This document shows, piece by piece, positions 10,522 through 24,574 of a stretch of DNA of 64,000 nt; the stretch's first letter is position 1; the number at the start of each line of letters is the position of its first letter. The stretch is taken from positions 806,001 through 870,000 of the forward strand of contig NZ_JAHVJQ010000001.1 in the NCBI RefSeq assembly GCF_019801145.1, given 5' to 3'. Origin of the DNA: Leisingera aquaemixtae. GTDB lineage: Bacteria > Pseudomonadota > Alphaproteobacteria > Rhodobacterales > Rhodobacteraceae. The translations under genes were made by a program, and so were the position numbers. The notes below the pieces were generated by a model. That model saw nothing but the letters and a program-made list of their open reading frames with translations. It made no database searches and was not told the origin of the DNA.

Positions 10522-11925
10522 CTAGCCGGCCAGAGAAGGCAGGTAAAGGACGATCCCCGGGAACGCGACCAGCAACGCGATTGTCACCGCATCGGCAATG
10601 AAGAACGGCGTCACGCCGCGGAACACGTCCTGCACGCTCAGGTCAGGGCGCACGCCTGCGACGACGAAACAGTTCAGCCCGATCGGCGGGGTGATCAGGC
10701 AGAACTCGGCCATTTTCACCACCAGGATGCCAAACCAGATCGCGCACATGGTGCCGCTCATGCCAAAGGCGCTGTCCGCCGCGGCAACGCTCTCACCACC
10801 GTTCAGCGCCATCACCGCCGGGTAGACCACCGGCAGGGTCAACAGCAGCATGCCGATGGCATCCATGAACATGCCCAGCACCGCATAGGCCAAGAGGATG
10901 CAGATCAGGATCAGCATCGGGCTCATCTCCAGCGAGGTGATCCAATCCGAGAACGCCCCCGGCAGATCGGCAAAGCCGAGGAACCGCACATAGATCAGGA
11001 CACCCCAGATGATGGTGAAGATCATCACCGTCAGCTTGGCTGTTTCCAGCAGCGCCGATTTCAGCTCCGCCCATTTCATGCCCTCCTTCAACGCATAGAG
11101 GAACACGATGAAGGCGCCGATTGCACCGCCTTCGGTCGGGGTGCCCCAGGCATCGCCGCCAAAGGGGTTGTAGACAAAGCAGATGATGATCACGACCACC
11201 AGCACGATGGGCAGCGCACCCGGCAGCGCGGCGAACCGCTGCCCCCAGGTGAAACCCTTGACCGGCGGGCCGACGGTTTTGAAGACCACCGCGATGCCAA
11301 CGATCAACAGGCCATAGATCACCGCCGAAAAGGCGCCCGGGATGAAACCCGCCAGCAGCAGCTTGCCCACGTCCTGCTCAACGATAATGGCATAGATCAC
11401 CAGAATGGCCGAGGGCGGGATCAGCGACGCCAGCGTGCCGCCGGCGGCAACAACCCCGGCGGCAAAGCGCTTGTCATAGCCGATCTCCAGCATTTCCGGG
11501 ATGGCGATGCGGGCAAAGACGGCGGAGGTGGCCACGGAGGCCCCCGAAACCGCGGCAAATCCCGCGGTGGCAAAGACGGTAGACACCGCCAGCCCGCCCG
11601 GCAGCCAGGCGATCCAGCGCTTGGCGGCCACGAACAGCGCACGGGTCAGCCCTGCGTAATAGGCGAGATAGCCGATCAGGATGAAGGTCGGGATGAGGCT
11701 CAGCGCCTGGCTGGAAACCTTGGAATGCGGCACCTGCCCCGCGGTCTTGACCGCGATGGTCAGCGCCTTGCCGAACCGGGCCGGGTCATAGCCGAACTTG
11801 GCCCAGAAGATCCAGATGAGGCCCGCAAGCCCCGCAAGCCCGGCCGCAAAGGCCACCCGCATCCCCAAGACCACCATGGCCAGCAGGCCGCCCGTGACCC
11901 ACAGGCCGATTTCAATCGGTTCCAT
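10522..11925 (-). CDS. dctM: TRAP transporter large permease (DctM)
   Basis: Twelve- to fourteen-span membrane subunit of a tripartite ATP-independent periplasmic transporter, 467 residues, full length. Typical features: GLAGLIWIFWAKFGYD near the start, PSAILVIYAIIVEQDVGKLLLAGFIPG (split over a span and loop), and the C-terminal ITPPIGLNCFVVAGV loop. It couples solute uptake to the sodium gradient. It follows dctQ by five bases and dctP is further upstream, giving the order dctP-dctQ-dctM. Confidence 0.93.
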   Translation of the reverse strand: MEPIEIGLWVTGGLLAMVVLGMRVAFAAGLAGLAGLIWIFWAKFGYDPARFGKALTIAVKTAGQVPHSKVSSQALSLIPTFILIGYLAYYAGLTRALFVAAKRWIAWLPGGLAVSTVFATAGFAAVSGASVATSAVFARIAIPEMLEIGYDKRFAAGVVAAGGTLASLIPPSAILVIYAIIVEQDVGKLLLAGFIPGAFSAVIYGLLIVGIAVVFKTVGPPVKGFTWGQRFAALPGALPIVLVVVIIICFVYNPFGGDAWGTPTEGGAIGAFIVFLYALKEGMKWAELKSALLETAKLTVMIFTIIWGVLIYVRFLGFADLPGAFSDWITSLEMSPMLILICILLAYAVLGMFMDAIGMLLLTLPVVYPAVMALNGGESVAAADSAFGMSGTMCAIWFGILVVKMAEFCLITPPIGLNCFVVAGVRPDLSVQDVFRGVTPFFIADAVTIALLVAFPGIVLYLPSLAG

Positions 11926-11930
11926 CTGCC

Positions 11931-12581
11931 TTACCCCTGCCCGCTGCCATTTGTGTCATGGCCTTGCATCTGTTCCGCTTCAGCCGCCGCCTGTTCTGCC
12001 GCGCTCTGGATCAGCGGCACCGCCACCGGAGCTTCCAGCCCCAGCACCAGCGCCCGGCCGTAGCCCCAGACCTGCAGCAGCAGCCGCAGGGCGAGCACCG
12101 CAAAGGCCACCGGCGCCAGCAGCTTGGCGGGCCAGATCGGTAGGCCGATGTCGATGGAGCTGTCGCGGCTCCACAGCGGCGCGGCGAAGTCGAAGGAGCG
12201 CAGGAAATGCGACCAGCTGCCCCAGACCAGCGCCAGGATCAAAAGAAGGATCAGCACAACCGAAACCAGTTCGAACAGCCACAGCGCCCGGCCGCGCAGG
12301 GCGCCAATAAAGATATCCATGCGGATATGGCCGCCCACGCGCTGCACATAGGCAATGCCCATGAAGGCGATCAGTGGCATGATCTGTTCGATCCAGTCGA
12401 CATAGCCGGGCAAGGGCGCGTTGATCGCGTTGCGCCCGCCAACCGAGACCACCGCCAGGATCATCAGCGAGAACACCGCAATGCCGCTCAGCAGCGCCAG
12501 CAACAGCTCCGCCTTCAGCAATCCCCTGTCCAGCCTGCTGATCAGGCTGCCATCCTCCAGCACCGCCGCGCTGCCTGCCAT
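11931..12581 (-). CDS. dctQ: TRAP transporter small permease (DctQ)
   Basis: Four-span small membrane subunit, 216 residues. Spans are clear at about residues 23-47, 60-78, 101-125 and 145-170; GHIRMDIF between the second and third is the family hallmark. The Ala/Glu/Gln-rich hydrophilic tail of some 40 residues after the last span is longer than in many DctQ proteins. It ends five bases before dctM. Confidence 0.9.
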   Translation of the reverse strand: MAGSAAVLEDGSLISRLDRGLLKAELLLALLSGIAVFSLMILAVVSVGGRNAINAPLPGYVDWIEQIMPLIAFMGIAYVQRVGGHIRMDIFIGALRGRALWLFELVSVVLILLLILALVWGSWSHFLRSFDFAAPLWSRDSSIDIGLPIWPAKLLAPVAFAVLALRLLLQVWGYGRALVLGLEAPVAVPLIQSAAEQAAAEAEQMQGHDTNGSGQG

Positions 12582-12616
12582 GCCCTGCCCCCGTCATTTC
12601 CGTATCGCCAAAGACA

Positions 12617-12649
12617 GAAAGGGCCGGTGCTATCCTGCCCGACCCTTTC
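12617..12649 (-). promoter_or_regulatory. Intercistronic hairpin between dctP and dctQ
   Basis: On the minus strand GAAAGGGTCGG pairs with CCGGCCCTTTC (11 pairs, one U-G) around an 11-base loop, followed by TGTCTTT. It sits in the 82-base gap after dctP. Such a hairpin usually limits read-through or protects the upstream message, giving more binding protein than permease. Confidence 0.6.
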
Positions 12650-12663
12650 CAGTTCTATCAGCC

Positions 12664-13680
12664 TCAGCTGCCCGAGCGCACGTCGCTCAGGGTTTTCTGC
12701 ACCAGGTCATAGAGCTCCTGCGCGGGCAGGCCCTGGGCGCTCATGTCCTTGATCCACTGTTCGCGGATCGGATCGGCAGCCACCTTGCGGAATTCGGCCA
12801 GCTGGTCGTCGGAGATCATCACCTTCTCGACGCCCTTCTCTTCCAGCACACCGTCCCATTTGGTCAGCAGCGCGCCGTAGTTCTCCAGGTAATGGGCAAT
12901 CGCTTCATCCACCGAGCTGTCCAGCGCCTCGCGCTCGGCATCGCTCAGCGCGTCATAGGCATCGGTGTTGACCACCACCGGGCAGTTCACGGTGCCGGGG
13001 TTCAGGTTGGCGGTCCACCAGTCGGCCTTGTTGATGGTGCCAAAGCTGAGATGCGCGTGCTGGGCAAAAGCGACGGTGTCCACGACACCGGACTCCATCG
13101 CGTTGTAGGCTTCGGTTGCGGTTACCGAGGTCGGCACTGCGCCCACGGCAGAAAACGCCTGGCCGATGCCGCCGGTGGCGCGCACCCGCATGTCCTTGAA
13201 CTCTGCCAGCTCATCCCGCGGCTCGCCGGTGCCGACGATATTGTACTGCGGCATCGGCGAGGTCATCAGCAGCTTGGCGTTCCAGCGCGCCAGATCCGCC
13301 TGCACTGCCGGATGGCCATAGACGGCGTGGCTGACAGCGACTTCCTCCTCCAGCGTGTTCACGCCCAGGAACGGCAGTTCCAGCACGGTGATCGAGGGGT
13401 TTTTGTCGCGGTGGTAGCCGGCGCAGAACTGCGCCATCTCAAAGGCGCCGATGGAAATCCCGTCGAGGTTTTCCTTGTTCTTGCTGAGACCGCCATAGCT
13501 GATATTCAGGGTGAACTCGCCACCGGTTTTCTCGCTCACAAGCTCGGCCAGTTTCTCCACATGCTCGGTAAAGGCGCGGCGCTTGCCCCACAGGGACACG
13601 TTCCACTCGGTGGCCGCAGCCTCCCCGGCGATTGCAAAGCCAGCGGCAGCCGCCACGGCGGCAGTCAGAATTTTTTTCAT
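12664..13680 (-). CDS. dctP: TRAP transporter substrate-binding protein (DctP family)
   Basis: Periplasmic solute receptor of the TRAP system, 338 residues. The signal peptide covers about residues 1-23 with cleavage after AAA (MKKILTAAVAAAAGFAIAGE). The core has KDMRVRATGG, whose Arg normally binds the carboxylate of an organic acid, and TATEAYNAMESGVVD, a conserved DctP stretch. Which acid is carried is not readable. First gene of the TRAP operon, divergent from acsA across a 502-base gap. Confidence 0.9.
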   Translation of the reverse strand: MKKILTAAVAAAAGFAIAGEAAATEWNVSLWGKRRAFTEHVEKLAELVSEKTGGEFTLNISYGGLSKNKENLDGISIGAFEMAQFCAGYHRDKNPSITVLELPFLGVNTLEEEVAVSHAVYGHPAVQADLARWNAKLLMTSPMPQYNIVGTGEPRDELAEFKDMRVRATGGIGQAFSAVGAVPTSVTATEAYNAMESGVVDTVAFAQHAHLSFGTINKADWWTANLNPGTVNCPVVVNTDAYDALSDAEREALDSSVDEAIAHYLENYGALLTKWDGVLEEKGVEKVMISDDQLAEFRKVAADPIREQWIKDMSAQGLPAQELYDLVQKTLSDVRSGS

Positions 13681-13944
13681 GATGTAACTCTCCCGGATTG
13701 CGCCCCTTTTTGCCCCGGCATTGGACCGGAGAGGTGCGCTTGGCGGTCAGGCTAGCCGCTTGCCCGCGCCCTGCCAACCCCTGCGGCCGAAGTGTTACGC
13801 AGCGACTCGCGCCCGGCGCGCAACCGGGGCTGAAATTCGGCCCGGCCCGCAGGCTGGCACAATATGCCGCAGCGCTGCGGCAGCATGTTTTCGCCAACAG
13901 CGCCGCAGCGCCGCCCTGCAGGCTGAAACCCCCGGCAAAACCCG

Positions 13945-13960
13945 TGTAAAACCGTTTACA
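13945..13960. promoter_or_regulatory. Inverted repeat upstream of acsA (TGTAAA-N4-TTTACA)
   Basis: Perfect 6+6 arms around ACCG, about 220 bases upstream of acsA. The TTTACA half recurs at 14009 and, in the scfR/livK gap, at 45922, 45954 and 45996. Candidate operator for an acetate or short-chain acid regulator; the regulator is not identified. Confidence 0.45.
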
Positions 13961-13990
13961 GGCAAGTCCTTGTTTTTGCCTGCTCTGAAG

Positions 13991-14005
13991 ATAGGAAATT
14001 CCTAT
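13991..14005. promoter_or_regulatory. Inverted repeat upstream of acsA (ATAGGAA-A-TTCCTAT)
   Basis: Perfect 7+7 arms around a single A, about 180 bases upstream of acsA and 30 bases after the TGTAAA/TTTACA palindrome. The sequence is unlike its GC-rich surroundings and looks like a binding site for a dimeric protein. No known family motif was recognised. Confidence 0.45.
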
Positions 14006-14008
14006 ATG

Positions 14009-14087
14009 TTTACAAATTTTACAGACGACCGGAAATTCGTTCACAAGCAAATGCTTAAAAACCCGTCAGTTATTCACAAATTTTCAG
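14009..14087. repeat. Degenerate direct repeat in the acsA upstream region
   Basis: TTTACAAATTTTACAG at 14009-14024 recurs as TTCACAAATTTTCAG at 14073-14087, 64 bases on. A third relative, TTTACAGAATTTTCAAG, lies at 45954-45970 between scfR and livK. This suggests a common regulator for acetate activation and the second locus. Confidence 0.45.
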
Positions 14088-14121
14088 CCTGCAGTATTAT
14101 CAGTGCCCAGGAGGAAACGGT

Positions 14122-14163
14122 TTGACAGCCACGGCACAGCGTTGTCGTTTGTCTTGCCAATAA
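14122..14163 (+). CDS. Possible short leader frame upstream of acsA
   Basis: AGGAGG at 14109-14114 is followed after seven bases by a TTG that opens a 13-codon frame (MTATAQRCRLSCQ) ending in TAA at 14161-14163. The acsA Shine-Dalgarno (GGGAGGAAAC) comes directly after it. A leader peptide is possible, but TTG start, short length and lack of comparison make this weak; the first AGGAGG may have another reason. Confidence 0.2.
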   Translation: MTATAQRCRLSCQ

Positions 14164-14182
14164 AATTCTGGGAGGAAACTGA

Positions 14183-16144
14183 ATGAACGCGCTGCACGCA
14201 GACGCTGTCTATCCGCCGTCGGACGAAACCGTTGCCCGCGCGCATGTGAATGCCGCCAAATACCAGGAGATGTACGAGGCCTCGCTGAAGGATCCGGAAG
14301 GGTTCTGGGGCGAACAGGGCAAGCGCATCGACTGGATCAAGCCCTTCACCCAGGTGAAGGACGTGAACTACAACTTCGGCAACGTTTCGATCAATTGGTT
14401 TGCCGACGGCACCCTGAACGTTTCCGCCAACTGCATCGACCGCCATCTGGACACCCGCGGCGACCAGACCGCGATCATCTGGGAACCGGATGATCCGAAC
14501 GAGGACGCCCAGCACATCACCTACAAGGAGCTGCACCGCCGCACCTGCCGGATGGCCAACATCCTGGAGTCGATGGGCGTGCGCAAGGGCGACCGGGTGG
14601 TGATCTACCTGCCGATGATCCCCGAAGCGGCCTATGCCATGCTGGCCTGCGCCCGCATCGGCGCCATTCATTCCATCGTGTTTGCCGGCTTCTCCCCCGA
14701 CGCACTGGCGGCCCGGATCAACGGCTGCGATGCCAAGGTGATCATCACCGCGGATGAGGCCCCCCGCGGCGGCCGCAAGACCCCGCTGAAGTCGAACGCC
14801 GACGCCGCCCTGCTGCACACCAAGGACAGCGTGAAATGCCTGGTGGTCAAGCGCACCGGCGGCCAGACCACCTGGGTGGACGGCCGCGACTACGACTACA
14901 ACGAGATGGCGCTGGAAGCGGATGACTACTGTGCCCCGGCGGAAATGAACGCCGAGGATCCGCTGTTCATCCTTTACACCTCCGGTTCCACCGGCCAGCC
15001 CAAGGGCGTGGTGCACACCACCGGCGGCTACCTGACCTATGCCGCAATGACCCATGAGATCACCTTTGATTACCACGACGGCGACATCTACTGGTGCACC
15101 GCGGACGTGGGCTGGGTGACCGGCCACAGCTATATCGTCTACGGCCCGCTGGCCAATGGCGCCACCACGCTGATGTTCGAAGGCGTGCCGACCTACCCCG
15201 ATGCCTCGCGCTTCTGGCAGGTCTGCGAAAAGCATAAAGTAAACCAGTTCTACACCGCCCCCACCGCGCTGCGCGCACTGATGGGTCAGGGCGATTCCTG
15301 GGTCGAGAAATGCGATCTGAGCGATCTCAAGGTGCTGGGCACCGTGGGTGAGCCGATCAACCCGGAAGCCTGGGAGTGGTATCACAACGTGATCGGCAAA
15401 GGCACTGTGCCAATCGTCGACACCTGGTGGCAGACCGAAACCGGCGGCCATCTGATGACCCCGCTGCCGGGCGCGCACACGCTCAAACCCGGCGCCGCGA
15501 TGAAACCCTTCTTCGGCATCCAGCCGGTTGTTCTGGACCCGCAGTCCGGCGTCGAGATCGAGGGCAACGGCGTCGAAGGCGTGCTGTGCATCAAGGACAG
15601 CTGGCCGGGCCAAATGCGCACCGTCTGGGGCGACCACGAGCGCTTCGAGAAAACCTATTTCTCCGACTACAAGGGCTATTACTTCACCGGCGACGGCTGC
15701 CGCCGCGACGAGGACGGAGATTACTGGATCACCGGCCGCGTCGATGACGTGATCAACGTCTCCGGCCACCGCATGGGCACGGCCGAGGTCGAAAGCGCGC
15801 TGGTGGCCCATGCCGCCGTGGCCGAGGCCGCCGTGGTCGGCTACCCGCATGAGATCAAGGGCCAGGGCATCTATTGCTACGTGACCCTGATGAACGACCG
15901 GGAGCCGTCGGATGAGCTGCTGAAGGAGCTGCGCCAGTGGGTCCGCACCGAGATCGGACCGATTGCCTCGCCGGACGTGATCCAGTGGGCGCCGGGCCTG
16001 CCGAAAACCCGCTCCGGCAAGATCATGCGCCGCATCCTGCGCAAGATCGCCGAAAACGACTTCGGCTCCCTGGGCGACACCTCGACGCTGGCCGATCCGT
16101 CGGTGGTCGAAGACCTGATCGAAAACCGTGCGAACAAGGGGTGA
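14183..16144 (+). CDS. acsA: Acetyl-CoA synthetase
   Basis: AMP-forming acetate-CoA ligase, 653 residues, the usual full length. ATP-binding motif [19 protein letters not shown] (about 264-282), WWQTETGGH (acetate/ATP site) and the C-terminal [12 protein letters not shown], in which Lys613 is the residue normally acetylated to switch the enzyme off. GGGAGGAAAC gives a strong ribosome site. It activates scavenged acetate and is followed seven bases later by adk, which recycles the AMP it makes. The SSS symporter further downstream probably brings in the acetate. No acetyltransferase or deacetylase gene is seen nearby. Confidence 0.96.
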
Positions 16145-16151
16145 TTGAGCG

Positions 16152-16835
16152 ATGACGACGGACACAATGACCCGCCCCGCCGTTCTGATCCTGCTTGGCC
16201 CGCCCGGCGCCGGCAAGGGCACCCAGGCACGGATGCTGGAAGAGAAGTTCGGCTATGTGCAGCTCTCGACCGGCGACCTGCTGCGCGAGGCGGTTACCGC
16301 AGGCACCCCTGCAGGCCTTGCGGCCAAGGCGGTGATGGAAGCAGGCCAGCTGGTCAGCGACGAGATCGTGATCAACATCCTGCGCGACCGGCTGGCAGAG
16401 CCGGACTGCGCCAAGGGCGTGATCCTCGACGGCTTCCCCCGCACCACCGTGCAGGCCGAGGCGCTGGACGGCCTGCTGGCGGAAACCGGCCAGAAGATCA
16501 ACGCCGCGATCAGCCTCGAGGTGGACGACGCGGCGATGGTCGAGCGGATCTCCGGCCGTTACACCTGCGGAGGCTGCGGCGAGGGCTACCACGACAGCTT
16601 CAAACAGCCTGCCGAGGCAGGCAAATGCGACAAATGCGGCGGCACCGAGATGAAGCGCCGCGCCGACGATAACGCAGAAACCGTTGCCAGCCGGCTGGAG
16701 GCTTATCACGCGCAGACCGCGCCGCTGATCGCCTACTACGGCGGCAAGGGTGTGCTGCAGACCACAGATGCCATGGGCGGTATCGACGACATCGCCCGGG
16801 ATATGGCGGCCATTGTGACCAAGGCCACCAGCTAA
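16152..16835 (+). CDS. adk: Adenylate kinase with zinc-type lid
   Basis: Converts AMP plus ATP to two ADP; 227 residues. The P-loop is GPPGAGKGT (about 16-24), DGFPRT is the AMP-site motif. The lid carries a Cys4 zinc finger, CGGCGEGYH...CDKCGG, a feature of some long-form kinases. It lies seven bases after acsA, so it is probably a second, acetate-linked adk rather than the ribosomal-protein-operon copy. A stable hairpin follows the gene. Confidence 0.93.
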   Translation: MTTDTMTRPAVLILLGPPGAGKGTQARMLEEKFGYVQLSTGDLLREAVTAGTPAGLAAKAVMEAGQLVSDEIVINILRDRLAEPDCAKGVILDGFPRTTVQAEALDGLLAETGQKINAAISLEVDDAAMVERISGRYTCGGCGEGYHDSFKQPAEAGKCDKCGGTEMKRRADDNAETVASRLEAYHAQTAPLIAYYGGKGVLQTTDAMGGIDDIARDMAAIVTKATS

Positions 16836-16845
16836 CAACCAAGAA

Positions 16846-16877
16846 ACGGGGCCTGCCCTGACCCGGCAGGACCCCGT
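16846..16877 (+). promoter_or_regulatory. Strong hairpin after adk
   Basis: ACGGGGCCTGCC pairs with GGCAGG-A-CCCCGT around a 7-base loop, one base bulged. No T-run follows, so full termination is doubtful. It may separate acsA-adk from the DUF4212/symporter message or stabilise the upstream 3' end. Confidence 0.45.
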
Positions 16878-17020
16878 CCCCGGACATTGGAATGCCCATC
16901 GGACCTGCCCTGGCAGACCGGAGGAGTCATGCCTGCGCCGCACCCCCGGCAGCAGGCAAACGGAGGAGGTCTGCCATGCACCCCCGCAAGGCAGACATGG
17001 AGGAAAAAGGAGGAGCCGCG

Positions 17021-17305
17021 ATGGCGGACCATTCCACAAATGCGGCAAAAACCGCCGAAGCCGATAAGGGCTATTGGGCGGCGAACGTGCGCATCATTCT
17101 AGTCAGCCTGGTGATCTGGGCTGTTGTTTCATTCGGCTTCGGCATCCTGCTGCGCCCGCTGCTTTCGGGCATCAAGGTCGGCGGCAGCGATCTGGGCTTC
17201 TGGTTCGCCCAGCAAGGCTCGATCCTGGTGTTCCTGGGGCTGATCTTTTTCTACGCGTTCCGGATGAACAAGCTGGACCGCGAATACGGCGTGGAGGAAG
17301 AATAA
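17021..17305 (+). CDS. DUF4212 small membrane protein, symporter partner
   Basis: Small two-span protein, 94 residues. KGYWAANVRIILVSLVIWAV opens the first span (about 17-40) and LGFWFAQQGSILVFLGLIFFYA the second, with a charged MNKLDREYGVEEE tail. Members are encoded immediately before VC_2705-type sodium/solute symporters and are thought to be their accessory subunit; here the gap is one base. The ATG at 17021 has AAAGGAGGAG; an in-frame ATG at 16976 with GGAGGAGGT is nearly as good, so the N-terminus is uncertain. Confidence 0.85.
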   Translation: MADHSTNAAKTAEADKGYWAANVRIILVSLVIWAVVSFGFGILLRPLLSGIKVGGSDLGFWFAQQGSILVFLGLIFFYAFRMNKLDREYGVEEE

Positions 17306-17306
17306 G

Positions 17307-19091
17307 ATGGACCAGTTTACCATCAACCTGCTGTTTGTGGGCGCATCTTTCGCGCTGTACATCGGCATCGCGATCTGGGCCCGCGCGGGCTCCACATCTG
17401 AATTTTATGCCGCAGGCCGGGGCGTTCACCCCGTGACCAACGGCATGGCCACCGCGGCCGACTGGATGTCGGCGGCCTCCTTCATCTCGATGGCGGGCCT
17501 TATCGCCTTTACCGGCTATGACAACTCCACCTTCCTGATGGGCTGGACCGGCGGCTACGTGCTGCTGGCGCTGCTGCTGGCCCCCTACCTGCGCAAGTTC
17601 GGCAAGTTCACCGTCTCCGAGTTCATCGGCGACCGGTTCTACTCCCCGACCGCGCGCGTGGTGGCGGTGATCTGCCTGATCGTGGCGTCGACCACTTACG
17701 TGATCGGCCAGATGACCGGCGTCGGCGTGGCCTTCGGCCGCTTCCTCGAGGTCTCCAACACCGCGGGCCTGCTGATCGGCGCCTGTGTGGTGTTCGCCTA
17801 CGCCGTGTTCGGCGGCATGAAGGGCGTGACCTACACCCAGGTGGCGCAGTACTGCGTGCTGATCATGGCCTACACCATCCCGGCCATCTTCATCTCGCTG
17901 CAGCTGACCGGCAACCCGATCCCGGCCCTGGGCCTGTTCGGCGACCACGCCGCCTCCGGCGAGCCGCTGCTGGCCAAGCTGGACGCCATCGTGACCGAAC
18001 TGGGCTTCAACGAGTACACCGCGCATCACGCCGACACCTTCAACATGGTGCTGTTCACCCTGTCGCTGATGATCGGCACCGCGGGCCTGCCGCACGTGAT
18101 CATGCGCTTCTTCACCGTGCCGAAAGTGGCTGATGCCCGCTGGTCGGCCGGCTGGGCGCTGGTGTTCATCGCGCTGCTGTATCTGACCGCTCCGGCTGTT
18201 GGCGCCATGGCCCGCCTGAACATCACCGAAATGATGTGGCCGAACGGCGGCATCGAAGGCGGCGCCGTGACCGTGCAGCAGATCGAAAACGATCCGCAGT
18301 ACGACTGGATGGCGACCTGGCAGCAGACCGGCCTCCTGGGCTGGGAAGACAAGAACGGCGACGGTGCGATCCAGTACTACAACGACAAGAACGCCGATCT
18401 GCAGGCCGTGGCCGAAGCCAACGGCTGGGCCGGCAATGAGCTGACCAACTTCAACCGCGACATCCTGGTTCTGGCCAACCCGGAAATCGCCAACCTGCCG
18501 GGCTGGGTGATCGGCCTGGTGGCGGCAGGCGGCCTGGCGGCTGCCCTGTCCACCGCGGCGGGCCTGCTGCTGGCGATCTCCTCGGCTGTGTCGCACGACC
18601 TGATCAAGGGCTCGATCAACCCGAACATCTCGGAAAAAGGCGAGCTGCTGTCGGCCCGTATCGCCATGGCCGTGGCCATCGGTGTGGCAACCTACCTGGG
18701 TCTGAACCCGCCGGGCTTTGCCGCGCAGACCGTGGCGCTGGCCTTCGGCCTGGCTGCTGCCTCGATCTTCCCGGCGCTGATGATGGGCATCTTCACCAAG
18801 GTGAACAACAAAGGCGCCGTGGCCGGCATGCTGGCAGGCCTGATCGTGACCCTGGTCTACATCTTCCTGCACAAGGGCTGGCTGTTCATCCCGGGCACCA
18901 ACTCCTTCACCGATGCGGACCCGCTGCTGGGCACCATCAAATCCACCTCCTTCGGTGCGGTTGGCGCGATGGTGAACTTTGCGGTGGCCTTCCTGGTGTC
19001 GAAATCGAGCGAAGCCATCCCGGCCGAGATCGAAGAGCTGGTGGAAAGCGTCCGCATCCCGCGCGGCGCCGGAGCGGCACAGGACCACTAA
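17307..19091 (+). CDS. Sodium/solute symporter, VC_2705/ActP-like (likely acetate)
   Basis: Multi-span SSS-family carrier, 594 residues. ATAADWMSAASFISMAG, SEFIGDRFYSPTARVVAVIC and QMTGVGVAFGRFLEVS are characteristic; YAVFGGMKGVTYTQVAQY covers span 5. A hydrophilic insert of some 80 residues (about 300-385; rich in Asn, Asp, Gln) is typical of the VC_2705 subgroup. Context with acsA, DUF4212, DUF294 and exonuclease genes points to acetate or another short acid. Two terminators follow the stop. Confidence 0.88.
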   Translation: MDQFTINLLFVGASFALYIGIAIWARAGSTSEFYAAGRGVHPVTNGMATAADWMSAASFISMAGLIAFTGYDNSTFLMGWTGGYVLLALLLAPYLRKFGKFTVSEFIGDRFYSPTARVVAVICLIVASTTYVIGQMTGVGVAFGRFLEVSNTAGLLIGACVVFAYAVFGGMKGVTYTQVAQYCVLIMAYTIPAIFISLQLTGNPIPALGLFGDHAASGEPLLAKLDAIVTELGFNEYTAHHADTFNMVLFTLSLMIGTAGLPHVIMRFFTVPKVADARWSAGWALVFIALLYLTAPAVGAMARLNITEMMWPNGGIEGGAVTVQQIENDPQYDWMATWQQTGLLGWEDKNGDGAIQYYNDKNADLQAVAEANGWAGNELTNFNRDILVLANPEIANLPGWVIGLVAAGGLAAALSTAAGLLLAISSAVSHDLIKGSINPNISEKGELLSARIAMAVAIGVATYLGLNPPGFAAQTVALAFGLAAASIFPALMMGIFTKVNNKGAVAGMLAGLIVTLVYIFLHKGWLFIPGTNSFTDADPLLGTIKSTSFGAVGAMVNFAVAFLVSKSSEAIPAEIEELVESVRIPRGAGAAQDH

Positions 19092-19100
19092 CCTCCCCTG

Positions 19101-19130
19101 GGCGGGCTGCCTCCCAGCAGCCCGCCTCTT
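19101..19130 (+). terminator. Terminator after the symporter gene (first of two)
   Basis: Perfect 10-pair stem GGCGGGCTGC / GCAGCCCGCC with a 6-base loop, followed by TCTTTCC. Rho-independent terminator on the plus strand, ten bases after the symporter stop. Confidence 0.8.
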
Positions 19131-19135
19131 TCCTC

Positions 19136-19176
19136 ATGGTCCCGCACGGTGCACAATCGGCGGGACCATTTTTTTC
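19136..19176 (+). terminator. Second terminator before the DUF294 gene
   Basis: Perfect 10-pair stem ATGGTCCCGC / GCGGGACCAT with a 14-base loop and a run of seven T. It ends only 22 bases before the next start codon. Confidence 0.88.
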
Positions 19177-19197
19177 TGATTTCACCCAGGTATACCC

Positions 19198-21021
19198 ATG
19201 CCCTTATCTGACGCTGCGCTGCTCCGGTTTCTGACCTCTGTCCATCCTTACGACAGCCTTGACCCGGCGCTGCTGCAGGAGCTGGCTCCGAAGTTCCGCC
19301 TGATCGACGCAGCCGCAGGCGATCCCGTCTATGCGCTGAACGAGGAGCTGGAAGGGCTCTATCTGGTCCACACCGGCGAGGTTGAGGTAACGGACGAGAA
19401 CGGCATCCCGGTCTCCATCCTCGGCCCCCGCAATTCCTTTGGCGAGCGCGGACTGACCCGCGGCGGCCGCGCGCTGACCTCTGCCCGGGCAGTCAAGGAC
19501 ACGCTGCTGCTGCTGCTGCCCAAGGCCGAATTCCGCACCCTGATGGCAAGCCAGCCGAAGGTGGCCAAATTCTTCGACCGGCGCCGCCCCGGCAGCCAGG
19601 ACACCTCCAGCCTTGCCACCACCCGGGTGGCAACCATCATGGCGCGCGATCCCGTCACCTGCTCCAGCGGCCTCACCTGCCAGGGCGCGGCGCAGCTGAT
19701 GCGGGACCGCCGCATCTCGTCGATCTGCGTGACCGACGGAGATGCGCTGCAGGGCATTCTCACCAACCGCGACCTGACCGGCAAGATCCTCGCCGCGGGC
19801 AAACCGATCTCCACCCCGGTTGGCGCGGTGATGACCCCGGACCCGCTGACCCTGGCGCCCGCCGCCATCGGCTCCGACGTGCTGCACATGATGATGGAGC
19901 ACGGCATCGGCCACATCCCGGTGATCGAGGGCGGAAAACTGGCCGGCATCGTCACCCAGACCGACCTCACCCGCTTTCAGGCCGTCAGCTCGGGCGAGAT
20001 GGTGTCGAGCATCGCACGCGCCGGATCCGCCAAAGACATGGCCCAGGTCACCGCCGAAATTCCCCGCCTGCTGGTGCAGCTGACCGCGGGCGGCAACCGC
20101 CACGAGGTGGTCACGCGACTGATCACCGACATTGCCGACACCGCGACCCGCCGCCTGCTGGCCTTGGCCGAGGAGCAGCTGGGCGCCCCGCCCGTCCCAT
20201 ACCTGTGGCTGGCCTGCGGCTCGCAGGGGCGGCGCGAGCAGACGGGGGTGTCCGACCAGGACAACTGCCTGATCCTGTCCGACGATCTGGCCCCCGGCGA
20301 CGAGGCCTATTTCGAACAGCTCGCAAGGTTCGTCTGCGACGGGCTCAACACCTGCGGCTATGTCTATTGCCCCGGCGACATGATGGCCTCCAACCCGCGC
20401 TGGCGGCAGCCGCTGCACGTCTGGCGCGACTATTTCCGCGGCTGGATCGCCAAGCCGAACCCGGAGGCGCAGATGCTAGCCTCTGTGATGTTCGACCTGC
20501 GCCCGATCGGCGGCGACACCGCGCTGTTTGCGGACCTGCAGCAGGAGACCCTGAGTGCGGCCAGCGCCAATTCGATCTTCACCGCCCATATGATCGCCAA
20601 CTCGCTGAAGCACACGCCGCCCCTGGGCCTGTTGCGCGGGCTGGCCACCATCCGCTCTGGCGAGCACCGCAACACGCTGGACATGAAGCATAACGGCGTG
20701 GTGCCGGTGGTGGACCTGGGCCGCATCTACGCCTTGCAGGGGCAGCTGGCGGAGGTGAACACCCGCGCGCGGCTGGAAGCGGCCGAGGCCGCGGGCGTTC
20801 TCAGCCACACCGGCGCGCGGGACCTGCTGGATGCCTACGACCTGATCGCCCAGACCCGGCTGGAGCATCAGGCGGCACAGATCCGCAGCACCCAGGCGCC
20901 GGACAACTACCTGGCGCCTTCGGACCTGTCTGATTTTGAGCGAAGTCATCTGCGCGACGCATTTGTTGTGGTAAAGACGATGCAATCGGCGGTTGGCCAC
21001 GGCAAAGGCATGCTGAGCTGA
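19198..21021 (+). CDS. cNMP-binding / CBS pair / DUF294 nucleotidyltransferase-like protein
   Basis: Soluble 607-residue signalling-type protein. Domains in order: cyclic-nucleotide-binding fold (about 8-125; GEVEVTDENG...LGPRNSFGERGL), two CBS motifs (about 142-265; MARDPVTCS and MTPDPLTLAP, which usually bind adenine nucleotides), a GlnD-like nucleotidyltransferase domain (about 290-440) with G341-S-Q-G-R-R-E347 and the metal pair D353/D355, and a helical DUF294 C-terminal domain (about 460-600). The catalytic residues are intact. Target and product are unknown. Genes of this type recur beside acetate-type SSS symporters. Two terminators stand just before it, so its own promoter or read-through is needed. 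Confidence 0.85.
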   Translation: MPLSDAALLRFLTSVHPYDSLDPALLQELAPKFRLIDAAAGDPVYALNEELEGLYLVHTGEVEVTDENGIPVSILGPRNSFGERGLTRGGRALTSARAVKDTLLLLLPKAEFRTLMASQPKVAKFFDRRRPGSQDTSSLATTRVATIMARDPVTCSSGLTCQGAAQLMRDRRISSICVTDGDALQGILTNRDLTGKILAAGKPISTPVGAVMTPDPLTLAPAAIGSDVLHMMMEHGIGHIPVIEGGKLAGIVTQTDLTRFQAVSSGEMVSSIARAGSAKDMAQVTAEIPRLLVQLTAGGNRHEVVTRLITDIADTATRRLLALAEEQLGAPPVPYLWLACGSQGRREQTGVSDQDNCLILSDDLAPGDEAYFEQLARFVCDGLNTCGYVYCPGDMMASNPRWRQPLHVWRDYFRGWIAKPNPEAQMLASVMFDLRPIGGDTALFADLQQETLSAASANSIFTAHMIANSLKHTPPLGLLRGLATIRSGEHRNTLDMKHNGVVPVVDLGRIYALQGQLAEVNTRARLEAAEAAGVLSHTGARDLLDAYDLIAQTRLEHQAAQIRSTQAPDNYLAPSDLSDFERSHLRDAFVVVKTMQSAVGHGKGMLS

Positions 21022-21040
21022 CGGCTGCGCTTGCCGGGAA

Positions 21041-21080
21041 TGCGGAAGCCTCCGGCGGGAGTATTTTGAGAAAGATGAAC
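21041..21080 (+). repeat. Dispersed intergenic element, copy 1
   Basis: The stretch around GGGAGTATTTTGAGAAAGAT at 21057-21076 has a close relative on the minus strand at 30149-30187 (GGAGTATTCCGGGAAAGATG). Both follow a stop codon and a small GC hairpin. Similar short elements are common in Rhodobacterales intergenic DNA (recollection, not searched). Confidence 0.45.
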
Positions 21081-21106
21081 AGGCCGAAAGCCTGCGGGGA
21101 GAGCAT

Positions 21107-21625
21107 ATGTTTCTGGAACTGATTGCGGTGATTTTTGCGGGCATTGCCGCGGCCGGCGTGGTGATGCTGCTGAACCGGACGCTCAAGGGCCGGCTGCCAC
21201 GCTGGTTCGCGCCGGTGGCGGCCGGGCTGGCGATGATCGGTGTCACCATCGCCTCCGAGTACGGCTGGTACAGCCGCACCAAGGCCGCCCTGCCCGAGGG
21301 GCTGGTGGTTGCGGAAACCGTCGAGAACCGCAGCTTCTACCGGCCCTGGACGCAGGTTGTGCCTTATGTGGACCGTTTTGCCGCTGTTGACACCGCAACG
21401 ATGAAAAGCCACGCGGCGCATCCTCAGGTCTATCTGGCCGACATCTATTTCTTCGGCCGCTGGGCGCCGGTCAGCAAGCAGCCAGCAGTGCTGGATTGCG
21501 GCAAATGGCGCCGGGCCCTGGCGACCGGCACCGCAGCGTTTTCCGGCAGCGGCCTGCCCCAGGGATTGGACTGGGTCGCCGGTGAAGCGGACGACGCCCT
21601 CCTGACCGCAGCCTGCGAGGGGTAG
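21107..21625 (+). CDS. Small membrane protein of unknown function
   Basis: 172 residues, not recognised. Two hydrophobic stretches (about 3-22 and 36-55) anchor it at the N-terminus; the remaining 115 residues are probably periplasmic, with two Cys (about 129 and 170) that could form a disulfide. It begins after GGGGAGAGC and ends two bases before the exonuclease gene, so the two should be co-translated, which suggests a joint role with the DUF294 and exonuclease proteins. Confidence 0.75.
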   Translation: MFLELIAVIFAGIAAAGVVMLLNRTLKGRLPRWFAPVAAGLAMIGVTIASEYGWYSRTKAALPEGLVVAETVENRSFYRPWTQVVPYVDRFAAVDTATMKSHAAHPQVYLADIYFFGRWAPVSKQPAVLDCGKWRRALATGTAAFSGSGLPQGLDWVAGEADDALLTAACEG

Positions 21626-21627
21626 CC

Positions 21628-23037
21628 ATGCACACACGGCTTTCGCTGCGGCTCCGCATCTTTCTGTTCTTCTGCCTGCTGGCCCTCGGCGGCATTGCCG
21701 TCACCACCGGTGCGCTCTGGCTCGGCTACAGCCGCTCTGGCCACCCGGAACTGACGGATGCTTTCCTGTTTTCCGGCCTGCTGAGCGGGTTTGCCATGCT
21801 GGGCCTTTGCGCCGGCATCTGGCTGCTGTTTGACGAAAACGTCGCCAAGCCGATCGAGCGGCTGGCGGCAGGCATGCGCGCCCGCGCCCATGCCGGGGTG
21901 AACAAGGAACTGGACACCCACGGCGCCCGCTACCTCGGCGACCTTGCCGCGGCCGCCCAGGGGCTGGCCGGGCAGCTGGGCGCCTCGGCGCTGTCGGCGG
22001 CCGAGGCCATCGCCCGCGAGACCGAGCATCTGGAGGCGGAGAAGGCGCGGCTGGCGGCACTGCTGACCGACATCCCCATTGCAACCGTCATGGCCAGCCC
22101 CGCCCACCAGATCGTGCTTTACGACGGCCAGGCCGCCGCAGTTCTGGCCGAGGAGGCGCCGCCGCGTCTGAACGCCCCGCTGTCCGATTACCTGGACCTG
22201 ACCGGGCTGGAGGCCGCTTACGGCCGCCTGATCCGCACCGGCATGGAGGTGCAGGCTGAGGTGAAAAGCGCCAGCGGCGCCCAGGTATACGACCTGCGCC
22301 TGAAACCGCTGGGCGGCGCGCCCGGCTATATCATCCTGTTCGAGGGCAGCCACGCAGGCCTGGCCCCCGGCGACGCCCGCCCGCTGGTCTATGACTTTGC
22401 CCTGCTGCACGCAGAGCACGCCGAGCTGGAGAACCGCAATCTCGCCGGCCACAGCTATGTGGTGTTCGACACCGAGACCACCGGCCTTTTGCCGCACAAG
22501 GACGAGATCGTGCAGATCGGCGCCCTGCGGGTGGTGCGCGGCCGGATCATCGAAAGCGAGACTTTCGAAACCCTGGTCGACCCGGGATGCCCGATCCCCG
22601 CAGCCTCTACCAAGGTGCACGGGGTCAGCGATGCCATGGTGCAGGGCGCACCGCAAATTACCGAGGCCGCGCGCCACTTCCACCGCTTTGCGTCCGACGC
22701 GGTGATCGTGGCCCATAACGCGCCCTTTGACATGGCCTTCCTGCACCGCCACGCCAAACGCACCGGGGTCATCTGGGACCAGCCGGTGCTGGATACCGTG
22801 CTGCTGAGCGCGGTGCTGTTCGGCGCCTCGCAGAGCCACACGCTGGACGCCTTGTGCGAACGGCTGGATGTCACCATCCCGCCTGCGCTGCGCCATACCG
22901 CCATGGGCGACGCCCGCGCTACAGCCGAGGTGTTCTGCAAGATGCTGCCGATGCTGGAAGCGCGCGGCATTGGCACCTTTGGCGCGGTGCTGCAGGAGAC
23001 CCGCAAGCACAGCCGCCTCATTGAAGACATGAACTAG
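21628..23037 (+). CDS. Membrane-anchored DEDDh 3'-5' exonuclease (Pol III epsilon-like)
   Basis: 469 residues with an unusual layout: two membrane spans (about 9-32 and 46-68), a HAMP-like segment (DENVAKPIERLAAGMRARA), a PAS-like region (about 140-250), then a DnaQ-type exonuclease (about 275-455). The catalytic set is complete: D281 and E283 in VFDTETTG, D368 in HNAPFDMAF, H423 and D428 in HTAMGDARAT. The sensor-like front makes a signalling role more likely than replication proofreading. It follows the 172-residue membrane protein by two bases. Confidence 0.87.
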   Translation: MHTRLSLRLRIFLFFCLLALGGIAVTTGALWLGYSRSGHPELTDAFLFSGLLSGFAMLGLCAGIWLLFDENVAKPIERLAAGMRARAHAGVNKELDTHGARYLGDLAAAAQGLAGQLGASALSAAEAIARETEHLEAEKARLAALLTDIPIATVMASPAHQIVLYDGQAAAVLAEEAPPRLNAPLSDYLDLTGLEAAYGRLIRTGMEVQAEVKSASGAQVYDLRLKPLGGAPGYIILFEGSHAGLAPGDARPLVYDFALLHAEHAELENRNLAGHSYVVFDTETTGLLPHKDEIVQIGALRVVRGRIIESETFETLVDPGCPIPAASTKVHGVSDAMVQGAPQITEAARHFHRFASDAVIVAHNAPFDMAFLHRHAKRTGVIWDQPVLDTVLLSAVLFGASQSHTLDALCERLDVTIPPALRHTAMGDARATAEVFCKMLPMLEARGIGTFGAVLQETRKHSRLIEDMN

Positions 23038-23097
23038 GTAGACAATCGGGGCCATGCGTGGCAGGTCACTGCCCGGAACGAACAGAAGGCGCGCGAA

Positions 23098-23598
23098 ATG
23101 GCCGACACCAGCTTTATTCCCGGGCCGGAGACCGCCCGGGCCTACCGCGATGCGCTTGGCTGCTTTGGCACCGGGGTGACGGTTGTCACGACCGGTACGC
23201 CGCGCGGCCCGCTGGCCATTACCGTCAACAGCTTCACCTCCGTTTCTCTGGACCCGCCCCTGATGCTGTGGTGCCCGGCCAAGGCCTCGCTGCGCCATGA
23301 TGCCTTTGTTGCGGCTGAGAATTTCGCGATTCACGTGATGGCGGAAGACCAGCTGCCCCTGGCCAAGCATTTCGCCGCCTTCGGCGAGGATTTCAGCACC
23401 GCAGCCTGGCAGCCCAACGAGCTGGGCGCGCCCGCGCTGGAGGGCGTGATCGCCCGCTTCGACTGCCGCCGCTATGCCTCGCATCCGGCAGGCGACCACA
23501 CCATCGTCATCGGCGAAGTGGCCCGCGTCACCACCCGTCCGGGCAAGGGGCTGATCTTCAAGCGCGGCCAGTATGGCGGGTTTCTGGAGCAGGGCTGA
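23098..23598 (+). CDS. Flavin reductase family protein
   Basis: FMN-binding split-barrel reductase, 166 residues. It shows the family stretch FGTGVTVVTTGTPRGPLAITVNSF (split by strands) and SLDPPLMLWCPAKAS, followed by FAIHVMAEDQ and GDHTIVIGEV. Such proteins supply reduced flavin to partner monooxygenases or act on small substrates. No partner oxygenase is adjacent. Its last 41 bases overlap the 3' end of the converging 4Fe-4S gene. Confidence 0.88.
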   Translation: MADTSFIPGPETARAYRDALGCFGTGVTVVTTGTPRGPLAITVNSFTSVSLDPPLMLWCPAKASLRHDAFVAAENFAIHVMAEDQLPLAKHFAAFGEDFSTAAWQPNELGAPALEGVIARFDCRRYASHPAGDHTIVIGEVARVTTRPGKGLIFKRGQYGGFLEQG

Positions 23599-24574
23599 TG
23601 ACGGCCTCTGCAAAGGGCAACCCCGCCTCGGCATCCTGATACGGATCAGCCACGGCACCGGCATCGTCAAAACTGCCCGGTGCCGGGACGGCATTCCCGC
23701 CCTGCCCGGCCAGCAGATACGGCAGCACCGCATAAGCGGTCAGATCCATGCCGGGGGTCATGCTGAGAGCCCTTTGCGGGCAGATCGAAACGCACAGGCC
23801 GCACTGGGTGCAAAGGGATTCCACAAAGCTCAGCGCGCCGCCGTTTTCGGTCAGGCTCAGCGCATCCGACGGGCAGACCCAGACGCAGCTGCTGCAGCTG
23901 TTGCACAGGCTTTCGTCCAGGCTGACAGAGCCGTATGGCGCCTGCTCCGGCAGCGGCACCTGGCTGGTATCGGACGGCAGCAGCGCCGCCGCGCTGGCGC
24001 GTGCGGTATCCCTGCGGCTGCCCATTGCCAGCACCTCCGGCGCGACCGAGGGGAACGGCAGCAGCCGCGCTGCCAGCCGCCGGTCCAGCCCTGTTGCGCC
24101 ATCAAACAGCAGCACACGCCCCAGCCCGCCCAGGGCGCGCACCAGCTCCACCTCCTGACGCTGTTGCTCCCGCCCCTGCGGCCCGGGACTGGCCTGCAGG
24201 TAAATGACATCGAAACCGCAGGCCAGCGCATGCAGCAGGTCCGCATGGGTGATCTTCTCCAGGCTGCAGACCGAAACCGGAACAACGTCGCTGCCCGGAG
24301 CTCCCGCCCCGGCCAGCCCGGCGGGCTCGATCTCGAACAGCGTCAGGATCTGCGCCCGGCCGGTTTCAAACTTGCGCTCATGCGCTTCCCGGCACAGGGC
24401 CATCAGCGGCAGCGCGCTGCTTCTGCTGGCAACGTCCAGCAGTGCCGGCCGCCCCTTGACCGCAAACCGGGACCGGCATTCTTCGGCTTCCTGCGGAGGG
24501 CAAAGGCACAGCTGCTGCGGCTGGCTGGCTGCCAGCTGTTGCCGTTCGAGGATATGTCCGCATGCCTCTCCCAT
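23558..24574 (-). CDS. 4Fe-4S ferredoxin-type protein, shortened
   Basis: 338 residues. Two ferredoxin motifs are near the C-terminal third: CNSCSSCVWVCPSDAL and CTQCGLCVSICPQRAL, enough for two [4Fe-4S] clusters. The preceding part (VSVCSLEKITHADLLHALACGFDVIYLQASP) resembles the middle of a longer (about 650 residue) Fe-S protein common in Rhodobacterales; the front Cys-rich section and the C-terminal Cys pair of that family appear to be absent. Start is uncertain, with only a weak ribosome site. Role unknown, perhaps electron transfer. Confidence 0.7.
   Translation of the reverse strand: MGEACGHILERQQLAASQPQQLCLCPPQEAEECRSRFAVKGRPALLDVASRSSALPLMALCREAHERKFETGRAQILTLFEIEPAGLAGAGAPGSDVVPVSVCSLEKITHADLLHALACGFDVIYLQASPGPQGREQQRQEVELVRALGGLGRVLLFDGATGLDRRLAARLLPFPSVAPEVLAMGSRRDTARASAAALLPSDTSQVPLPEQAPYGSVSLDESLCNSCSSCVWVCPSDALSLTENGGALSFVESLCTQCGLCVSICPQRALSMTPGMDLTAYAVLPYLLAGQGGNAVPAPGSFDDAGAVADPYQDAEAGLPFAEAVISPAPETRHTGRA

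Follow-up and report, generated by a model that had tools for sequence, protein, structure and literature searches.

A linked DUF294 nucleotidyltransferase and membrane-anchored DEDDh exonuclease beside an acetate-type symporter of Leisingera aquaemixtae: a possible reversible nucleotidylation switch

In several pseudomonads a gene for a CBS/nucleotidyltransferase protein is followed by a gene for an RNase_T exonuclease, and published reports place these genes in the context of CrbS/R (MxtR/ErdR): PP_0354-PP_0353 in Pseudomonas putida, Pflu5625 in P. fluorescens and PA3232-PA3235 in P. aeruginosa (PMC9927547, PMC5715377, PMC8402216, PMC9765439). The genes pp_0354 and pp_0353 lie in one operon (PMC9927547), the pp_0354 promoter is bound by ErdR (PMC8402216), Pflu5625 (cAMP-binding/CBS/nucleotidyltransferase) belongs to the CrbS/R regulon (PMC5715377), and propionate upregulates the PA3232-PA3235 cluster, which includes an actP homologue (PMC9765439). 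We met a related arrangement, a DUF294 nucleotidyltransferase gene and an RNase_T exonuclease gene near an acetate-type symporter, in a 64,000-nucleotide stretch of Leisingera aquaemixtae DNA (assembly GCF_019801145.1, contig NZ_JAHVJQ010000001.1, positions 806,001-870,000, forward strand), which as a whole is called the window. Our survey indicates that transferase and exonuclease are a real dyad, linked far beyond chance; that together they make up a reversible nucleotidylation switch on the acetate/pyruvate-type symporter system is a tentative reading, to which we give serious though not majority credence.

The window resembles the Pseudomonas systems, whose dyads adjoin actP and yjcH in some strains, and differs from them in three respects. 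The Pseudomonas systems go with ActP/DUF485, whereas the window carries an SSS/DUF4212 symporter; the partner exonucleases of sampled Pseudomonas-like loci are short open reading frames (ORFs; e.g. L144, L148), whereas that of the window has a membrane front half; and in the window acs and adk belong to the same cluster. In locus L144 the dyad stands beside malate synthase G, which is probably the same arrangement as in P. putida, where the pair lies near glcB.

The transferase-exonuclease dyad

The linkage was surveyed in 199 Pseudomonadota genomes, one even draw from one phylum. With a threshold of over 100 bits for a strong DUF294 match, 107 places were listed and the surroundings of 103 were fetched (G176, G105:C468, G093 and G065 were left out, and L180 was dropped as a repeat of L062); the loci were searched with profiles built from the proteins of the window. 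An exonuclease adjoins DUF294 on the same strand or is fused to it for 88 of the 103 ORFs, lying within 500 bp downstream in 78 cases, at 500-1000 bp in 6 and just upstream in 1, with 3 fusions. The six wider spacings are those of the window's own family, in which a small protein is encoded in between, and the fusions, of the order RNase_T-CBS-CBS-DUF294-DUF294_C, were confirmed by Pfam. The linkage thus proved widespread in a check of genome neighbourhoods that had been set beforehand.

Furthermore, the two proteins co-evolve: a Mantel test gave r = 0.748 against a permutation maximum of 0.079 (N = 88), and for 17 genomes with several pairs, a DUF294 protein and its partner exonuclease had their closest counterparts within one and the same pair of another genome in 447 of 608 comparisons, with 283.8 expected; the 608 comparisons are not independent, and neither test fully removes shared ancestry. 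Among 80 named loci (L181-L260), 51 have DUF294, small protein and exonuclease in this order on a single strand (50 of the 51 loci L181-L231), and in 12 more DUF294 and exonuclease are close on one strand; the exonuclease is on the other strand only in 11 and is absent from 6, several of which are short contigs. The nearest named relatives are Rhodobacteraceae, for example Ruegeria and Phaeobacter, and the 4.88 Mb genome of L. aquaemixtae contains a single DUF294 match.

Two side observations concern these named loci. At Burkholderiales-type loci (L239, L241, L242, L244, L245, L247, L252, L259) the exonuclease adjoins DUF294 on the opposite strand. One DUF294 gene 59% identical to that of the window comes from a metagenome-assembled genome titled Intrasporangiaceae (an actinobacterium; L226), which is likely misbinned.

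The transferase gene (19198..21021, plus strand), the proposed writer, encodes 607 amino acids with Pfam matches to cNMP, two CBS, DUF294 and DUF294_C; the last, a helical domain (PF10335), scores 158.6 bits. The first-pass annotation had described an intact GlnD-like active site, and G341, S342, R345, E347, D353 and D355 were indeed located in their places. Across the family G341, S342, R345, D353, Q354 and D355 are kept in 103/103 ORFs, and position 347 holds E in 96 of them and D in the other 7. There is a third acid, D433, which the annotation had not listed; 98 ORFs have D there and 5 have E. Residues G439, K497, R509 and R525 are invariant. In a Foldseek search the AlphaFold model (predicted local distance difference test, pLDDT, 88) matched structures of CBS and cNMP domains and, in its catalytic half, both halves of GlnE (1v4a, 3k7d) and DrrA (6yx5) among the 50 matches listed. 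GlnE and DrrA modify proteins, and DUF294_C has been grouped with the substrate-binding domains of GlnD and GlnE (PMC3710099). The protein clearly belongs to the DUF294/GlnE-type nucleotidyltransferase family; transfer of a nucleoside monophosphate (NMP) to a protein is predicted. It shares with GlnE and GlnD the nucleotidyltransferase motif, the third acid and the helical substrate-binding domain, besides the fold match to both GlnE halves. GlnE and GlnD carry a second nucleotidyltransferase or an HD domain, whereas the window protein has a CBS pair and a cNMP fold, and erasure is assigned to another protein, the DEDDh exonuclease, as a proposal.

As to the ligand, the phosphate-binding cassette of cNMP domains has a conserved E and R. 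In the DUF294 proteins this pocket is degenerate, with a variable position 83 (A, L, V and Q are commonest) and no conserved R in 78-104, so that the domain, which had been annotated as cNMP, is probably no cNMP sensor, and gating by cAMP was rejected. The motif of CBS adenosyl-ligand modules is GxxTxxD, which is conserved in CBS1 (G186 in 93, T189 in 94 and D192 in 85 of 98 ungapped sequences) and weaker in CBS2. Gating by adenylates through the CBS pair, for which ligand binding is predicted, is therefore likelier than gating by cAMP and is plausible; sensing of adenylates seems reasonable because the neighbour Acs makes AMP and the neighbour Adk uses it.

The exonuclease gene (21628..23037, plus strand), the proposed eraser, encodes 469 amino acids with a Pfam RNase_T match. 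The DEDDh residues that had been claimed, D281, E283, D368, H423 and D428, were all found where expected, and the partner exonucleases keep D281, E283, H423 and D428 in 87 of 88 cases; as motif-II acid, 55 of them have D and 31 have E. A check for catalytic-residue loss in homologues thus found the residues kept in nearly all members examined (103/103 DUF294 proteins, 87/88 exonucleases). Hydrophobic stretches lie near residues 5 and 44, and the AlphaFold model (pLDDT 83) comprises two long N-terminal helices (7-35 and 42-89), a helical linker, a mixed alpha/beta region (150-240) and the exonuclease domain (278-436), which matches structures of PolC, DinG, epsilon, RNase T and TREX. The alpha/beta region appears PAS-like to us; in a longer relative (L201) a PAS_4 match fell below its cut-off. 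Judged from the model, the protein looks like a membrane sensor with a nuclease as its output domain. It is clearly a member of the DEDDh family. Motifs and fold are common to it and the DnaQ/PolC exonucleases, which it does not resemble in its membrane sensor-like front half, its usual DUF294 neighbour and the exchange of motif-II D for E in 31 of 88 partners.

Membership in the RNase_T family and a PolC/epsilon-like fold would also suit an enzyme that trims RNA, for example the mRNA of transporters or enzymes, with the transferase either extending RNA by nucleotides or regulating the nuclease. Decay of mRNA has been proposed, as a speculation that left other mechanisms open, for the P. putida exonuclease (PMC9927547). 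For general RNA turnover, however, the membrane-anchored, sensor-like front half of the window's family would be odd, as would the strong tie to one transporter class, and we consider this explanation quite improbable.

In some ActP-type clusters (L136, L165, L167, L174) a membrane exonuclease of ~710 amino acids is encoded between DUF294 and a protein of ~920 amino acids. The latter weakly matches SSS, and histidine kinase domains were found in L167, the one that was scanned.

Tie to acetate-type symporters

In the sample, DUF4212 occurs in 57 of the 199 genomes and DUF485, the small subunit of ActP, in 47 above its cut-off. One or the other is present in 74 of 75 genomes with strong DUF294 and in 21 of 124 without. 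At the level of families the subunit is present in 30/31 with DUF294 versus 6/27 without (family-stratified chi2 24.1); in each of the nine mixed families every genome that has DUF294 also has a symporter subunit, and the window's own family divides into 7 genomes with both and 6 with neither. Moreover, 67 of the 107 DUF294 places are within 10 kb of DUF4212 (40) or DUF485 (27). On a quick tree of the 103 DUF294 proteins, which has some long branches and linkage labels partly entered by hand, the linkage to the symporter changes at least 15 times. Conversely, a symporter subunit without strong DUF294 is common (21 genomes), and the E. coli record examined shows acs-yjcH-actP without a neighbouring dyad. 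In this sample the symporters are thus often without DUF294 and the dyads rarely without a symporter, from which we conclude that the dyad follows the symporter, whereas the symporter does not follow the dyad.

For comparison, control families were examined. The acs gene proved uninformative as a co-occurrence control, being over its cut-off in 183/199 genomes. BCCT occurs in 37/75 genomes with strong DUF294 and 27/124 others and DctP, taken up below, correlates as well, so that part of the symporter association is confounded by lifestyle; among the families compared, the nesting of DUF294 genomes is nevertheless tightest for the acetate-type symporter.

The sole strong-DUF294 genome of the sample without DUF4212 or DUF485 (G008) has its exonuclease upstream (L166). 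A branch of dyads (L121, L126, L128, L130, L131, L139) stands beside genes for BCCT (betaine/choline-type) transporters. These transporters share the LeuT fold.

Weighing a reversible nucleotidylation switch

In the proposed switch, adenylates bound to the CBS pair would gate the DUF294 enzyme, which would modify some protein of the uptake system with AMP or UMP and so turn uptake down; the DEDDh exonuclease would hydrolyse the phosphodiester and turn uptake up again, in the window's family from a position tethered to the membrane behind the sensor-like front half. Chemistry, nucleotide, target and direction of control we infer. The published genetics fit this scheme. On pyruvate the pp_0353 (exonuclease) mutant and the actP-I mutant of P. 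putida are impaired and the pp_0354 (transferase) mutant is not, the defects being delays and not loss of growth (PMC9927547); such an asymmetry would follow if the transporter stays off when the eraser is lost and stays on when the writer is lost. Fitness data of others cited in the same report show actP-I and pp_0353 to be alike at 5 mM acetate. That the genes form a functional pair on the acetate/pyruvate symporter system, as the first-pass annotation had suggested in terms of writer and eraser, is thus supported by fusions, co-evolution and published mutants; the part that it gave to the small protein is not. The two are a dedicated, co-evolving pair, and their membership in the reversible nucleotidylation systems is a proposal.

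SelO/RNase Z and SidM/DrrA-SidD are earlier cases in which writer and eraser are different proteins (PMC12663964, PMC12409994). In the former the eraser is a nuclease, RNase Z acting as deAMPylase on SelO substrates (PMC12663964); in both, the erasers come from families other than that of the window exonuclease. Exonuclease activity has been assayed with the aryl ester pNP-TMP (PMC4822814, citing Hamdan et al.), a compound that in our view resembles tyrosine-NMP.

Several observations weigh against the switch. RNase T, which likewise belongs to the DEDDh enzymes, did not strip SelO substrates of their AMP, either in vitro or in cells (PMC12663964). Growth of P. putida on 20 mM acetate was unaffected by deletion of pp_0354 or pp_0353 (PMC9927547), deletion of Pflu5625 had a negligible effect on acetate (PMC5715377), and actP mutants likewise had no or a negligible acetate defect (PMC5715377, PMC9927547). 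The accessible portions of PMC9927547 do not mention a double pp_0353/pp_0354 mutant, and our literature search found no experiment testing a nucleotide mark. Among the dyads themselves, 15 of the 103 DUF294 ORFs have no same-strand neighbour exonuclease (9 far away or on the other strand, 6 with none in the locus), and two intact DUF294 genes have defective partners, one degenerate with its active site lost (L084, 6229-6924) and one without the motif-II acid (L083, 6159-7409). As regards the symporter, 40 of the 107 DUF294 places are more than 10 kb from any symporter small subunit, at least 9 are within 10 kb of a BCCT gene instead of or besides the symporter (taken among the matches listed, Pfam-confirmed for three), and the control family DctP also correlates with DUF294, less strongly (71/75 versus 57/124). 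Finally, the DUF4212 and SSS sequences were searched for a target residue and nothing clear emerged, and one candidate target, a C-terminal tail of the symporter, was rejected. This tail, which reads VRxPxGAGxAxDH in the DUF4212 type and VRxxTGxGAxxAxxH in ActP, had seemed tied to DUF294 in DUF4212-type symporters; ActP of DUF294-negative genomes keeps a similar one, and it was discarded for this independence. The TIGR03648-type and ActP symporters share VR...G.GA...H at the extreme C-terminus (L061-L180, L261-L280).

Growth defects of pp_0354 and pflu5625 mutants were absent or negligible under the conditions tried, as would be expected if DUF294 were a sensor scaffold devoid of transferase activity and the exonuclease acted independently in acetate/pyruvate metabolism. 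The active-site residues, invariant in 103/103, favour catalysis, however, and the fusions speak against independence, which makes this the least probable of the alternatives that we weighed.

The dyads far from symporter genes would be easier to explain if the product of DUF294 were a small, diffusible nucleotide, degraded by the exonuclease, through which the symporter or its sensor kinase is controlled. DEDDh enzymes can act on short oligonucleotides, and the same genetics and gene order would be expected. Yet the nucleotidyltransferase folds among the 50 Foldseek matches listed are those of the protein modifiers GlnE and DrrA, the others being CBS- or cNMP-domain structures, and the grouping of DUF294_C with GlnD/GlnE domains (PMC3710099) points the same way. 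We regard a diffusible nucleotide as unlikely, while giving it some weight.

To return to the nucleotidylation switch, control of protein activity by nucleotidylation has been predicted for Pflu5625 (PMC5715377, citing Aravind and Koonin); in the literature found it was suggested in this context for the transferase alone. Our search retrieved no report of a DEDDh exonuclease as an eraser and no proposal of this exonuclease undoing a mark of this transferase. More doubtful, though possible, is the broader idea of a widespread reversible nucleotidylation switch on LeuT-fold symporters (SSS; BCCT in some gamma-proteobacteria), with a DEDDh exonuclease as hydrolytic eraser that in the window's family is built like a membrane sensor kinase with a nuclease in place of the kinase. 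If true, DUF294 would gain a function, the P. putida phenotype would be explained and DEDDh exonucleases would become candidate erasers of protein marks. As to the P. aeruginosa cluster, a strain deleted for PA3234 grew on propionate without a defect (PMC9765439).

The surrounding cluster

The ORFs of the window were read from stop to stop, and intergenic distances are therefore approximate. Upstream of the dyad, all on the plus strand, lie acs for an AMP-making acetate--CoA ligase (14183..16144; NCBIfam TIGR02188, 1022 bits; Pfam AMP-binding), adk for adenylate kinase (16152..16835; Pfam ADK and ADK_lid), the DUF4212 small subunit of the symporter (16892..17305; Pfam DUF4212; NCBIfam TIGR03647 above cut-off) and the SSS large subunit of the VC_2705 family (17307..19091; TIGR03648, 805 bits with a cut-off of 321; Pfam SSF). 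The true start of the DUF4212 ORF is probably further in, as the domain match begins at residue 59. The order acs-adk-DUF4212-SSS-DUF294-small protein-exonuclease was found as first annotated, which does not imply a continuous operon: a strong hairpin and T-run separate SSS from DUF294, so that the cluster need not be one uninterrupted transcription unit. According to sequence reading and folding, this gap (19092..19197, plus strand) holds two hairpins in succession, of which the first is GC-rich and the second leads into seven T, with a fold of -50.9 kcal/mol (z -7.0). Of 46 comparable gaps, 24 have a hairpin of -17 kcal/mol or better ahead of a T-run, versus 4 of 460 shuffled ones. The hairpins, a predicted terminator or attenuator, make it likely that the dyad is expressed at a lower level than the symporter or separately from it; lower expression would suit catalytic amounts of a regulator and is no proof of one. 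A riboswitch candidate named after TIGR03647 has been placed upstream of the small-subunit gene (PMC6429828); in the window this gene is preceded by adk, and an Rfam search of 13000-24000 gave no match up to an E value of 1.

The small membrane protein between the dyad genes (21107..21625, plus strand; 172 amino acids) matches no Pfam family at E 0.001. It has one hydrophobic stretch above threshold, from residue 1 on, and, as we read the sequence, possibly a second at about 36-51; its cysteines C131 and C170 are invariant in 72/72. It was found at 16 of 57 DUF4212 loci, all in DUF294-bearing genomes (16/45 versus 0/12, p = 0.013), and at L081, L089, L091 and L102, loci that contain no DUF294, it adjoins the symporter. 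As it follows the symporter, its inclusion in the transferase/exonuclease set is not upheld; it is probably a symporter-associated accessory protein facing the periplasm. The two invariant cysteines suggest an oxidised periplasmic domain, and the protein was consequently set aside as a substrate of the mark.

Downstream of the exonuclease gene a flavin reductase-like gene occupies 23098-23598, and upstream of the cluster TRAP transporter genes (DctM, DctP) lie on the minus strand at 10522-13680.

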